NCBI GenBank assembly: GCA_019637265.1
Contig: JAHBVY010000001.1
Coordinates: 1,364,001-1,428,000, forward strand
Reading direction: 5' to 3'
Source of the DNA: Polyangiaceae bacterium
GTDB lineage: Bacteria > Myxococcota_A > Polyangia > Polyangiales > Polyangiaceae
DNA length: 64,000 bases
This document shows, piece after piece, positions 7,858 through 13,510 of the stretch. The position numbers and the translations under genes were made by a program. The notes under the pieces were generated by a model. That model searched no databases, was not told the DNA's origin, and saw only the letters and a program-made list of their open reading frames with translations. How positions within the stretch are numbered: position 1 is the first letter of the stretch; each line of letters starts with the position of its first letter.

Positions 7858-9299
7858 CTAGCGCTCGGCCACGCGCGGCGCGAGCGGCGTCAGGTCGATG
7901 CCCGCCATCGACTTCAACACCCGGCTGAGCTCGAGATCACTGCGCGTCTCTGCCACCTGGAAACCCGTGAGCAGCTCTTGGACGTCGCTCTGACGATCGC
8001 GCACCTGGCTCGACCCAAGCGCCCGTGGACCCAACGGTTCGAGGGTTTGGGGGTTTGGCGTGGCGCTGGACGCCGAGCGCGGGGCGACGATGGGCGCCAG
8101 CATGGAGGCCACGCTCGGCTCCGCTCGTGGCTCTCGTGATGGCGCCGAGCGGGGCGCCTCACCAGGCGTGTGAAGGCTCGCGCCCAGCTGCTCTGAGTCA
8201 GCTCTACTGCTCATCTGGCGGGGGCTGAAGTCAGCTTCACTGTGCATCTGAGGCGGCTCGAAGTCGGCTTCACTGTCTACCTGGAGCTCGAAGCCGCCCG
8301 CGCCCTCGAAGCCCTGCGCCAGCTCCGCCACGGGCACGCGCTCCGTGGCGTCGCCGTCCGCGAGCAGCAGGCCGTCGATGGGTGACTCCACCTCCGCGAA
8401 GGCGAGCGCCTCACGCTCACGGCGCCGCGCGACGGCGGGCTGTTGACAGGTGAGCTCATCATCCGTGGCGGCGAACGTCGGTACCCGCGGCGCGCGCGGC
8501 ACCTCGGGCGCCCACAGCACGTCGGGCGGCGGCGGCGCAGGGTCCGTCTGCGCGAGATCGGTGCGCGGGGTGTCGCCGCGGAGATCGCTGGGCGGCACCT
8601 CGCTCCGCCGTGGGTCGCTGCGCGGCGCATCACTTCGTGGCGCATCACTTCGCGGCGCGGGCGAAACCGCGTGGCTCTGTAGAGCGCGGGGCGCGCGGTG
8701 TGACGCCTGGTCGCGCGCGCGCATCGTGGCGTCACCCCGCCGGTTCCAAGCTGGCGCCTCCGTCACGTCCGCCACCCGTGGAGACGCCACGCGCTGCGGC
8801 CGCTCGAGGGCCGGCGCGCGCGGCGCCACACGCCCCTCGGCCGCGTGACCCTGAACCGGCGCCACGCGACCTGGCTCCGCGTTCGCCTCCGCGAGGCTCG
8901 GCAACGCCGCGCTCACCTCTCGACTCAGCCGCGACAGCGCGCGCCGCGCGGCCGCGCGGTTCACCGGGATGAGCCCGGCCTCCAGCTCACGCACCAGCTC
9001 CGCCACGCCGCCCGAGCGCCGCGTCGCGCGCAGCAACGCGGGGGGTAGCGGGCGCGACACCCCGAGCAGCTCGCCCAGGTAGGTGCGGAGCAGCTCCCCG
9101 CAGCGCTCGCTCTCACACGCCGCGCCGCGCCCGACGCTCACCTCACCGCGCTCGTCCAGCGTGAGGTCCGCCGCCTCGAAGCCGCGCGGCGCCTTGAGCA
9201 GCTGATCGGCCGCCGCCAGGATCAAATACCCCGCTACCTCGCCCGCCACTGAAGCGCGCCGCGCCTCCGCCGCCAAGATGATCTGCGAAAGGTTGACCG

Positions 9300-9303
<4 letters not shown>
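7858..9303 (-). CDS. Unknown protein, conserved-looking N-terminal domain plus long disordered tail
   Basis: 481 aa. The N-terminal 130 residues look folded: [26 protein letters not shown], a beta pair around [12 protein letters not shown], and a helical block ending [15 protein letters not shown]. The remainder is low complexity, with DNA-encoded repeats APRSD x4 (about residue 215) and [20 protein letters not shown] (about 350-375), ending in a short helix-prone segment. The start overlaps the hisF stop (ATGA at 9300-9303), so it is translationally coupled to hisF; a metabolic link is not evident. A multi-domain adaptor role is only a guess. Confidence 0.75.
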
Positions 9304-10265: not shown

Positions 10266-12239
10266 ATGAGGGTCTGCAGCGGCTGCGGCAGCGTGAACCA
10301 TGGGACGGAGCGCTGCGTCGTCTGCGGCGCGGCGCTCGGCGCGCCGCTCGACCCTGCACCAGCGGTAGAGCCCCAGCAGCCCGACGGGGGCTCCCTCCCG
10401 ACCCGGCTCCAGTACAGCCCTGGCCCCGTCGCACCAGAAGCCGCCAGAGCCCCGGCGCCAGAGCCAGCACCCGCACCTGCGCCACCCGAACCAGCCACCG
10501 CACCCGCCGCCGCAGCGCCTGCCCCAGCTGCCGTACCCGCTGCTGCACCTGCGCCAGCCGCCGCGCCGCCCGTCAACCCCAAGCAAACCCTGCTCGGCAT
10601 CGCCCCCGTCATCCCGGGCGCGCCCGCGGCGCCAGTACCCCCAGCGGCAGCACCGAGCGCGCCGAGCGCACCACCGGCGCCACCCGAGAACCCCAAGCAA
10701 ACCCTGCTCGGCATCGCCCCCGTGATCCCCGGAGCGGCGGCAGGCGCGGCGCCGCCGAGCGCCGCCAACCCCAAGCAGACCCTGCTCGGCATCGCCCCCA
10801 CCTCCCCCGCTGCGTTACACGCCGCGGCGCAGCAACCCCCGTCTCCGTCAGCTGCCCTGCCGCAAGCCGCGGAGGGCGCACCGCAAGCTGGCGCCGCCGC
10901 CGAGCCAGCGCCAGCCGCGCCAGGCCCGCTGCACCTCCCCTCGAAGAATCAAACCCGACTCGGGGTGGCGATGCCCGGCATCGCGCCGACCCACAGCGCG
11001 CCGGGGGGCGCGCCCGTCCCCACCGAGGCGCCAGTGGCGGCGCCGCAGCTCACCTCACCGCGCCGACGCCCCCTGTGGCCCTGGTTGCTCGTCGGCACCC
11101 TCGGCCTGCTCGGCGTGCTCATGGGCGTCGGTTACTGGCTGCTCCGGCCCAGCACCCCCGTCAGCGCCCAGCTCGTCAGCTCACCTGATGGTGAGGCGCT
11201 GGCCCTGAGCTGCCTCGAGTGCCCCGATGGCAGCCGCGTCGAGCGCGGCGCGGCGAGCGCGGTGTTCACCGCCCATCAAGCGACCCTCCCGCTCTCGGAG
11301 CAGCTCGGCGTGGGCGATCACGAGCTCACCATCTCGCTCAGCCGCGGCGGACGCACGGAGACCCTGAAGCTCCCGATTGGCGTCGACTACCGCGCGCACA
11401 TCGACCTCGGCGCGCTCAAGGATCGAGACCCACCCGCGCTGGCGCTGGTGGTCGAGGCGCGCCCTGGCTCCACCGTGGAGGTTCAAGGTCAGCCGCTCTC
11501 ACTGGATACGAACGGCCGCGGGGTGTGGCGTGAGGACTTGAGCCTGCAGCTGACCGGCCCTTCGAGCCGCGTCGAGCGCCTGGAGCGCGACGTCGAGTAC
11601 CAGATCACCCCGCCGGGCGGCGCCCCTCAGCGGGGCAGCGCCAAGCTCCGGATCGGCATCGCCACCCTGGGCGTCGACGCCCCGCTGCCGCGCCTCACCA
11701 CCGCCAAGCCGAGCTTCATGTTGTCCGGCGTGGCGGATCCGCGCGCCGACGTCACCGTCACCGGTCAGCCCATCAAGCGCGGCGACGCCGGGCGCTTCGC
11801 TCAAGCGATGGCGATCTCCAGCCCCGGGGAGACCACCATCCGCGTGAAGGCGACGCTCGCGGACCACGCACCCCGGTTCATCCCACTGACGATCCACCGC
11901 ATGGACTCACTCGCCGCCGCTGCGGAGAGCTTCCGCAAGCAGCCGACGAAGCGCCTCGCCGAGGTGCGCGCGGCGCTCGGTGAGAGCCGTGGCGTCAAGG
12001 TCGCGTGGACGGGGCGCGTGAGCGACGCCTCGAGCGCGCACGGCCGTCAGGTGCTGCTGCTCGACGTGGCCGGGTGCGGCGCAGCCAGCTGCCTCACGCG
12101 GGTGGTCTACGCCGGCGAGGCGACGCCCCAGGTGGGCGATCGGATCACGGTGTTCGGAGAGGTGCAGGGCGGCGTCCCAGGGCCGCGCACCGGACAGCTC
12201 GTCCCCGAGGTGTACGCGGAGTTCTTGCTGAGCGAGTGA
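10266..12239 (+). CDS. Zinc-ribbon membrane protein with NPKQTLLGIAP repeats
   Basis: 657 aa, unrecognised as a whole. An N-terminal zinc ribbon (CSGCG and CVVCG) is followed by a long Pro/Ala linker that carries NPKQTLLGIAP at residues 104, 142 and 168 and a variant, NQTRLGVAMPGIAP, at 228. A single transmembrane helix (PLWPWLLVGTLGLLGVLM, about 275-300) leads to a large outer part (about 305-657) with PEGA- or Ig-like beta segments, including two Cys (CLEC) and, near the end, an OB-like stretch (RVSDASSAHGRQVLLLDV). The ribbon is cytoplasmic if orientation follows the usual N-in rule. The Thr in each repeat could be a Ser/Thr-kinase target; this is speculative. It is followed after 2 bp by the propeller gene. 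Confidence 0.75.
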   Translation: MRVCSGCGSVNHGTERCVVCGAALGAPLDPAPAVEPQQPDGGSLPTRLQYSPGPVAPEAARAPAPEPAPAPAPPEPATAPAAAAPAPAAVPAAAPAPAAAPPVNPKQTLLGIAPVIPGAPAAPVPPAAAPSAPSAPPAPPENPKQTLLGIAPVIPGAAAGAAPPSAANPKQTLLGIAPTSPAALHAAAQQPPSPSAALPQAAEGAPQAGAAAEPAPAAPGPLHLPSKNQTRLGVAMPGIAPTHSAPGGAPVPTEAPVAAPQLTSPRRRPLWPWLLVGTLGLLGVLMGVGYWLLRPSTPVSAQLVSSPDGEALALSCLECPDGSRVERGAASAVFTAHQATLPLSEQLGVGDHELTISLSRGGRTETLKLPIGVDYRAHIDLGALKDRDPPALALVVEARPGSTVEVQGQPLSLDTNGRGVWREDLSLQLTGPSSRVERLERDVEYQITPPGGAPQRGSAKLRIGIATLGVDAPLPRLTTAKPSFMLSGVADPRADVTVTGQPIKRGDAGRFAQAMAISSPGETTIRVKATLADHAPRFIPLTIHRMDSLAAAAESFRKQPTKRLAEVRAALGESRGVKVAWTGRVSDASSAHGRQVLLLDVAGCGAASCLTRVVYAGEATPQVGDRITVFGEVQGGVPGPRTGQLVPEVYAEFLLSE

Positions 12240-12241
12240 CG

Positions 12242-13510
12242 ATGCAGCGCGCGCCCTCCCCCCGAGTCCCTGCCGCAGCGCTCCGCCTTGAGCAGGCGCG
12301 CGTCGCTGGTGGCGCCGAGCGCGGCGTGAGTCGAGCTGCCCATCGCCTCATCGGCGCGGTCTGCCGGCTCCGGAGCGAGCCACTGCGCGTCGCCGTGCCC
12401 CTGCTCATCGCCTGCGCCTACGCCACCCCGGCGCAGGCGGGCGATCCGGCGGTCGCCACTCGAGTGGTGATCGAGGGTGCGCGGAGCGCGCCCGCGGGGC
12501 TCACCCAGAGCGCGTTGCCAGCGCGGTTCAAAGCGGTCGCGGAGGCGCGCGTCGAGGGCAGCATCCTGCCAGCGCCCGTCGCCGACCGCGCGGGCAAGCT
12601 GCTGGTGGTGACGAGCACGCGGCACCTGCTCCAGCTGGGCCAAGACGGTGCGCTCGAATGGAGCCGCACCCTACCAGGCTTCCCCACTTCGAGCGTCGTC
12701 GTCACCAGCGACGGCACCCGCGTGATCGCCACCAGCGAGGGCCTGTTCGGAGTCGACGCGAGCGGCGAGGAGCGCTTCTTGGCGCGCTCATTCGCCAACC
12801 CGCGCCCCGTCCAGCTGGTCGCGTTACCTGACGGGAGCCTGGCGCTCAACTTGGTGCATCAGGTGTTCAAGGTATCGCCGCGGGGCAGGCTGCTCGACCG
12901 CGCGAGCTTCAACACCGCGGTGGCGGAGGTGGTGCGGGGTGAGGGTCAGCTCCTGATCGCCCTGGGTAACACCGTCTACGGCTGGCGCCCGCCCGCGCCC
13001 CCACGCAAGCTGACGACGTTACCCACGGCCGTGAGGGGCCTCACCCCACGGGGGCGACAGCTGTTCGCGCTGGGCGGCGCCGGGACGACGCGGACGGAGC
13101 TGTTCGAGATCGATCTACCGACCTCCACCCATCACCGACGCTGGGAGCTCGAGGGTGTCCACGTCACCCGCTACGCGGTGCTGCCCAACCAAGCGACCTT
13201 GAGCATCGCCGCGGCGGGGCTCCTGGTGCACCACGACAAGGAAGGCAGCGAGCGCTCGCGGAGCGTCCCGGTGCCCGTCACCGGGACGGGGCCCGTCGTA
13301 GCCCCCCTCGTGCTGATCGACGCGAGCGGCAGGCTCGCGTTCGCGAGCGATGGCACCGGGATCGGCGTGGTGCGCCCCGGCGGCGCCACGACGCGCCAGG
13401 ACGAGCTGAGCTGCCCAAGCTACGCCGGCCTGGTCGAGCTCGGCCCCGATCGCTACGCCCTGGTGTGCAGCAGCGGCCTGGTCCGCTTCCTGCGCGGCGA
13501 GCGACGCTAG
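12242..13510 (+). CDS. Exported beta-propeller protein
   Basis: 422 aa. After a basic N-terminal stretch, a signal-like hydrophobic segment (VAVPLLIACAYATPAQA, about residues 45-62) is followed by repeated PQQ/WD-like blades such as GKLLVVTSTRHLLQLGQDGALEW and GTRVIATSEGLFGVDASGEER. The start, ATG 12242, lies 2 bp after the stop of the zinc-ribbon gene, so the two are co-translated. A single-blade family name cannot be given. An extracytoplasmic scaffold or a BamB-like role is possible but not shown. Confidence 0.75.
   Translation: MQRAPSPRVPAAALRLEQARVAGGAERGVSRAAHRLIGAVCRLRSEPLRVAVPLLIACAYATPAQAGDPAVATRVVIEGARSAPAGLTQSALPARFKAVAEARVEGSILPAPVADRAGKLLVVTSTRHLLQLGQDGALEWSRTLPGFPTSSVVVTSDGTRVIATSEGLFGVDASGEERFLARSFANPRPVQLVALPDGSLALNLVHQVFKVSPRGRLLDRASFNTAVAEVVRGEGQLLIALGNTVYGWRPPAPPRKLTTLPTAVRGLTPRGRQLFALGGAGTTRTELFEIDLPTSTHHRRWELEGVHVTRYAVLPNQATLSIAAAGLLVHHDKEGSERSRSVPVPVTGTGPVVAPLVLIDASGRLAFASDGTGIGVVRPGGATTRQDELSCPSYAGLVELGPDRYALVCSSGLVRFLRGERR

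Follow-up and report, generated by a model that had tools for sequence, protein, structure and literature searches.

Proteins of the Myxococcota carry a short linear motif that is tied to the kinase network of this phylum. The motif is conserved, recurs in predicted disordered linkers of unrelated proteins, is strict in its Thr residue and shows a strong bias to kinases and zinc-ribbon proteins. We propose that this short Thr sequence probably serves as a shared recognition or phosphorylation tag, and phosphorylation of the Thr followed by recruitment of a partner is the mechanism that we infer to be the likeliest. The motif is described here starting from a zinc-ribbon membrane protein encoded in the window, the whole stretch of 64,000 nucleotides that was analysed.

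The window protein and its motif copies

The gene encodes a protein of 657 amino acids, the translation of which was checked from an ATG start; a longer frame in the ORF listing begins at GTG 10137. Its features and those of the downstream gene are as follows:

10266..12239, plus strand: gene of the zinc-ribbon, single-TM, Ig-like and OB-fold protein (657 aa, ATG start)
10275..10325, plus strand: zinc ribbon CSGCGSVNHGTERCVVC, residues 4-20, CxxC-x9-CxxC (regular expression)
10356..11075, plus strand: disordered Pro/Ala linker, residues 31-270 (240 aa), block mean pLDDT 37-64
10575..10607, plus strand: motif copy 1, NPKQTLLGIAP, from residue 104, Thr108, exact
10689..10721, plus strand: motif copy 2, NPKQTLLGIAP, from residue 142, Thr146, DNA identical to copy 1
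10767..10799, plus strand: motif copy 3, NPKQTLLGIAP, from residue 168, Thr172, one synonymous base from copy 1
10941..10973, plus strand: motif copy 4, variant SKNQTRLGVAM, from residue 226, Thr230
10941..10991, plus strand: long form of copy 4, SKNQTRLGVAMPGIAPT
11079..11141, plus strand: transmembrane helix, residues 272-292, modelled as helical at a block mean pLDDT of 63-72
11157..12236, plus strand: folded C-terminal part with Ig-like domains and OB fold, residues 298-657, pLDDT mostly >90
12227..13510, plus strand: PQQ/beta-propeller-like neighbour gene (PQQ_2, E 0.04 only)

An AlphaFold2 model built on 37 sequences contains neither helix nor strand between residues 31 and 270, and all four motif copies sit in segments with pLDDT mostly <50. 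The zinc-ribbon region (residues 1-30) reaches a block mean pLDDT of 77-87; Pfam gave no zinc-ribbon match for this protein at E<=1. An RRR sequence precedes the transmembrane helix, so that, by the positive-inside rule, the zinc ribbon and the linker are presumably cytoplasmic and the Ig-like/OB part is likely to be periplasmic. Within the latter, model residues 426-547 resemble glucodextranase (VIA-align, Z 11.5, 86 residues, rmsd 1.9), in line with a Glucodextran_B Pfam match at E 2e-5 that lies under the family cut-off. The C-terminal OB fold spans about 550-657, and OB folds of aspartyl/asparaginyl-tRNA synthetases match model residues 560-657 with Z about 10 (VIA-align).

Three exact copies and one variant at irregular steps in a Pro/Ala linker had been noticed in the initial annotation, and this description is accurate: the steps are 38, 26 and 58 residues. 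Shuffling the 240-aa linker 5000 times never (0 of 5000) produced an 11-mer that occurs three times. Copies 1 and 2 agree over all 33 nucleotides and copy 3 is off by a single synonymous base; the exactness of the copies may thus reflect recent duplication, which alone is an adequate explanation within this gene. The case for selection must therefore rest on homologues and on unrelated proteins.

Conservation of the motif among homologues whose linkers have diverged

A match to the window protein was found in 43 of 59 relatives. Loci were available for 30 of the 45 match rows; 29 of these were not the own gene, and all 29 were read. One (L030) comprises only the C-terminus and was left out, leaving 28 testable loci. 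The linkers of 26 of these hold one to seven copies each, and no copy was present in the linkers of the other two (L025 and L027). The motif persists although the linkers themselves have diverged, which bears out the initial claim that it is conserved in its own right within an otherwise non-conserved linker. In many homologues the copy nearest to the membrane has the long form TxLGVAxPGIAP.

Carriers outside the family

From 53 motif instances we derived a profile, which was run on 12 genomes together with a column-reversed control. At E<=10 the profile gave 96 matches and the control 27; at E<=0.7 the numbers were 48 and 1. These 48 matches fall into 26 members of the window family, 14 other frames of 346-1419 aa and eight frames of 48-202 aa. 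Six of the eight short frames were read and look like chance or non-coding matches; the remaining two, G008:C163 and G024:C69, are outside the six that were read. By contrast, all 14 long non-homologous frames, every one of which was read, have the motif in Pro/Ala-rich linkers. They comprise:

Ser/Thr kinases (five): L160, L161, L162, L163, L167
Degenerate kinases without a normal catalytic HRD (three): L158, L164, L165
MJ0042 zinc-ribbon proteins with TPR or GYF (three): L093, L159, L166
PEGA protein (one): L095 (genome G006)
Pro-rich proteins with a C-terminal hydrophobic segment (two): L092, L177

Kinases or degenerate kinases thus account for eight of the 14. Pfam searches with nine of them (L158, L159, L160, L161, L163, L165, L166, L092 and L095) support these assignments except for L092, which had no Pfam match; L162, L167, L164 and L093 were assigned by similarity to other carriers, and L177 by similarity to L092. 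The degenerate kinases, two of which (L158 and L165) retain a Pkinase match, have one motif copy each and are probably pseudokinases.

Matches at E>0.7 were read in part. They include one genuine carrier, the kinase L066 (E 1.69). Seven others (L168-L172, L175 and L176) are chance matches in folded or probably non-coding frames, and no matching frame of 150 aa was found for L173 and L174.

In a model of kinase L163, the motif region (372-399) has pLDDT mostly <50, and an alignment of four such kinases (A4) shows T390-G393 to be invariant within a diverged linker.

As a separate observation, the linkers of L161, L162, L163 and L167 and of the related kinase L336 (see below) contain two more conserved islands that flank the motif, GGSDLDVFEGL and an acidic Thr island, WDDEDEKTHVYDK / DEKTSIYDK. 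We take the latter to resemble a phosphosite of the GarA/OdhI type. The PEGA protein L095 looks like a member of the motif-bearing PEGA kinase family minus the kinase domain; it keeps SDLDVFEGL, the Thr motif and the acidic Thr island.

Carriers in the own genome

The genome that contains the window has 95 Pkinase and 41 FHA (PF00498) matches. A strict DNA pattern and the profile revealed no other credible carrier in this genome; matches in an FtsL-like protein and a GMC oxidoreductase, both named by eye, were rejected as chance. Likewise, the first 30 kinase loci comprised 27 kinase frames, from all of which the motif was absent. We then read 40 more stretches, 39 of them around kinases. Among 68 kinase-like frames, two kinases carry the motif:

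C1:578593-582902: kinase L336, PAPRQKTLVGLPPPGPA, motif RQKTLVGLPPP
C15:299844-304036: kinase L344, NSPKRTQLGLGAPPPPPP, motif PKRTQLGLGAP

Both had been missed by the strict pattern and the profile because position +1 is Q in one and position +2 is V in the other. L336 is related to the motif-bearing kinases L161, L162, L163 and L167, and L344 to L066 (68% identity over query residues 11-389). Confinement of the motif to the window protein within its own genome is thereby ruled out: three motif-bearing proteins were found, the kinase and FHA loci being those read in detail. Searching the own and related genomes for copies in disordered linkers, as the initial annotation had proposed, returned non-homologous Pro-rich linkers including those of L336 and L344. 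The motif was found in 0 of 16 FHA-like frames, which were picked by a rough signature.

Spread within the phylum

When 114 genomes from across the phylum were sampled, 17 gave a profile match at E<=0.1. The motif lies in a linker-like setting in 19 of the 20 new loci, and L242 has none. These 19 loci correspond to 17 frames, since two locus pairs hold one frame each:

Receiver/TPR protein: L233
TPR protein: L251
Short and long zinc-ribbon proteins: L234-236, L240, L241, L243, L245
Kinase with N-terminal motif: L244
Members of the window family: L238, L246, L247
Proteins without a Pfam match where scanned: L237, L239, L248, and L232, a relative of L237

Four of these (L240, L241, L243 and L245) are long proteins that come from another family of the phylum and have a CxxC pair at the N-terminus. 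They contain many Thr motifs of two kinds, one basic (KKTMMGLP / STLFGIP) and one acidic (for example DGATQVMSP and DDATQALGP).

Clustering of 34 motif-bearing proteins by blastp (low-complexity masking, E<=1e-4) gave 12 groups between which no homology was detectable. All kinase carriers form a single one of these groups, joined through their catalytic domains. The motif is often located ahead of a single membrane helix, the helices outside the window protein being judged by eye. Occurrence in this protein alone and loss from orthologues, which would have spoken against a docking or phosphorylation motif, is not what is seen: it is kept at 26 of 28 homologous loci and is present in 11 further groups and in two kinases of the own genome.

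We also scanned one genome per species (84,980 species, contigs of at least 3,000 bases) for two close copies of the motif. This double-motif scan returned 27 stretches. Twelve are Pro/Ala-linker proteins, all of them from Myxococcota, with records titled Myxococcota, Myxococcales, Polyangiaceae, Polyangia, Labilithrix or Sandaracinus. The other 15 were judged to be chance matches; one of them, L191, is from a deltaproteobacterial MAG, and its frame, which is not rich in Pro, includes a pair of similar EAK(A/T)MLGIG stretches.

The Thr position is strict

With fixed flanks ([KRQ] before and [ML][LMIV]G[MVIL] after), the residue at the Thr position in homologue frames is Thr in 61 cases, Gln in one and Ser in none; this count covers 30 frames, including the own gene and L026, which was in the wrong frame. 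Ser and Thr are about equally common in the linkers (5.6 and 5.4%). In non-homologous frames, Thr occurs 25 times, Val once and Ser never, a count that is biased because the motif itself was used to find these proteins. A looser count that does not demand the basic residue gave Thr in 95 of 116 matches, and several of the other 21 are transmembrane segments. When position +3 was left free, all 61 homologue matches had Gly. Homologous and non-homologous copies alike often have basic residues or Gln at -2/-1, together with hydrophobic ones at +1, +2 and +4, whereas +1 tolerates M, L, I, R or Q.

In 81 sequences of the own genome (the window, 70 kinase-search loci and 10 FHA loci; 385,006 bases), the Thr form occurs six times in a Pro-rich context, in three proteins. 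The Ser, Ala, reversed and T/G-swapped forms were each found 0 times, and the Val form once, in an unrelated frame.

At the DNA level the two residues are nearly equal: across 14 genomes, a Ser pattern matched 74 places and a Thr pattern 96 (reversed-pattern controls: 21 and 16, respectively). It is only the context of the loci read, 30 for each pattern, that separates them, as one of 30 Ser loci but eight of 30 Thr loci are Pro-rich. Six of these eight Thr loci belong to the window family.

Possible mechanisms

The motif, roughly [KR][KRQ]-T-[ML]-[LMV]-G-[MVLI]-[AP], could act as an interchangeable tag in disordered linkers of zinc-ribbon proteins, Ser/Thr and degenerate kinases, and PEGA, TPR, GYF and receiver-domain proteins. 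Hanks-type kinases, among them some with this very tag in a linker of their own, would phosphorylate its Thr. The tag, either in its phosphorylated form or after a switch triggered by phosphorylation, would then bring in a shared cytoplasmic partner, for which an FHA protein is one possibility. The four copies of the window protein may together form a multivalent docking strand that reaches from the zinc ribbon to the membrane and connects with the presumably periplasmic Ig/OB part. To this reading, a linker tag in Myxococcota signalling proteins that is phosphorylated on Thr by Hanks-type kinases and recruits a common cytoplasmic partner, we give an even chance of being correct.

The initial annotation had suggested a docking or phosphorylation motif recognised by an FHA protein or a kinase. 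The strict Thr and the recurrent association with Hanks-type kinases fit the general idea. Characterised FHA domains select D, I, L, V or Y at position +3 of their ligands, which is unlike the invariant Gly of the motif. An FHA protein is a possible reader: Thr strictness fits it, and Gly at +3 and the result of 0 of 16 FHA-like frames count against it. As a further point against the phosphorylation reading, the models do not dock the motif onto either the zinc ribbon or a kinase domain; pLDDT at the motifs is <50, and the kinase model (A4), with only four sequences and a mean pLDDT of 59, is too weak to exclude docking.

The main rival is a docking site that works independently of phosphorylation. 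Here, a basic cluster followed by hydrophobic-x-hydrophobic (KK-T-M-L-G-M) would bind a groove of a kinase or scaffold in the manner of D-type motifs, with the Thr retained for its shape and not for a phosphate. The flanking preferences described above, shared by homologous and non-homologous copies, agree with this layout, and several copies per protein would fit avidity. Docking alone, however, leaves the absence of Ser and the rarity of other residues at the Thr position unexplained, while +1 varies. Overall, we regard this explanation as somewhat unlikely.

A far-reaching extension of the phosphorylation model would be a phylum-wide phospho-tag code. One Thr motif, copied among unrelated membrane proteins, kinases and degenerate kinases and phosphorylated by kinases with a T-x-x-G loop, would string its carriers into multivalent membrane assemblies, with the zinc-ribbon/OB protein (up to seven copies) as the hub. 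This seems improbable to us.

Another speculative reading is an activation-loop mimic, in which the linker copies the T-x-x-G segment that is trans-phosphorylated among kinases, so that the carriers would be co-substrates of one kinase group. Of 58 activation loops of the own genome, 46 have a Thr 14 residues ahead of the P in the [SAP]PE end, and Gly follows this Thr at +3 in 35 of the 46, compared with 67 of 728 other kinase-domain Thr. The loops extracted from seven motif-bearing kinases (L336, L344, L066, L161, L162, L163 and L167) all read [RKN]T[QRT][VA]G; these seven represent only two families, and L160 deviates with DTAVG, having a D before the loop Thr. An activation-loop profile ranks the linker motif Thr at a mean percentile of 0.90 among linker Thr. 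The motif profile, in turn, ranks the loop Thr at a mean percentile of 0.679, on top in seven of 46. Without T and G, the motif profile places the loop Thr at chance (0.488, 46 kinases) and the loop profile drops to 0.66 (95 motif Thr). Thus, the motif shares the T-x-x-G core with activation loops and little more, and no likeness beyond T and G was detected in these comparisons. We consider mimicry of this kind distinctly unlikely.

Slightly more doubtful still is a localisation or assembly tag that is read outside the kinase/FHA network, for example by a small GTPase, a polar scaffold or a GYF domain. The MJ0042 zinc-ribbon/GYF protein L166 among the carriers would suit such a role, but kinases or degenerate kinases make up eight of the 14 best non-homologous carriers. 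Finally, a functionless repeat expansion of a low-complexity linker, which the identical DNA of copies 1 and 2 would allow, has a negligible probability given the retention of the motif in diverged linkers, its recurrence in 12 groups without detectable homology and the near-empty reversed-profile control.

Relation to known systems

Proteins of the GarA/OdhI type carry a Thr phosphopeptide in a flexible segment that is read by an FHA domain. The Thr peptide in a flexible segment is common to both cases, and WDDEDEKTHVYDK of the L161-163/L167 linkers resembles the GarA sequence; the motif described here, in contrast, has basic and hydrophobic residues and a Gly at +3 instead of an acidic character. 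In eukaryotic MAPK D-type docking motifs, which lie in disordered regions, a basic cluster precedes hydrophobic-x-hydrophobic. The sequence layout is similar, whereas the present motif has a near-invariant Thr and Gly and belongs to another phylum and other kinases. The MJ0042 zinc-ribbon/GYF architecture of the carrier L166 is presumably that of the gliding protein GltJ/AgmX. GltJ/AgmX shares a zinc ribbon, a disordered linker and a single membrane helix with the window protein; the latter differs in having no GYF match in Pfam and a C-terminal part of Ig-like domains and an OB fold.

A precedent comes from kinase juxtamembrane regions. According to PMC12077195, the disordered juxtamembrane domain of StkP is phosphorylated on seven Thr, which do not fit the predicted substrate motif of the kinase, and recruits division proteins; as cited there, the phosphorylated juxtamembrane domain of PknB binds FhaA. 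Common to both systems is a disordered linker with several Thr between catalytic domain and membrane, the phosphorylation of which recruits partners in the former and would do so here. The passages on the StkP Thr name no shared motif, whereas the motif described here recurs in kinases and in other proteins alike. Neither linear motifs nor phosphorylated kinase linkers are new as such; a phylum-wide motif common to kinases and non-kinases appears to be new, and we found no description of such a motif among the matches listed in the open-access literature.

In the genome comparison of PMC2887360, eukaryote-like kinases are reported to be most numerous in myxobacteria. By marking candidate substrates or docking partners across unrelated proteins, such a motif would offer a sequence handle on the myxobacterial kinase network, as it identifies the carriers of every genome, points to the Thr to be mutated and is suitable as bait. 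Few substrates of these kinases, and little of their wiring, appear to have been described so far.

Genomic neighbourhood

Upstream of the zinc-ribbon gene, on the minus strand at window positions 7858-9303, lies a gene for an unannotated protein that has no Pfam match and is partly conserved, with alignments of 118-136 residues in five of the 12 neighbourhoods compared. The PQQ/propeller-like gene has a direct blastp match in six of 12 homologue neighbourhoods, and in nine of 12 by linked clustering. Its retention near the zinc-ribbon gene suggests a joint envelope function of the two.
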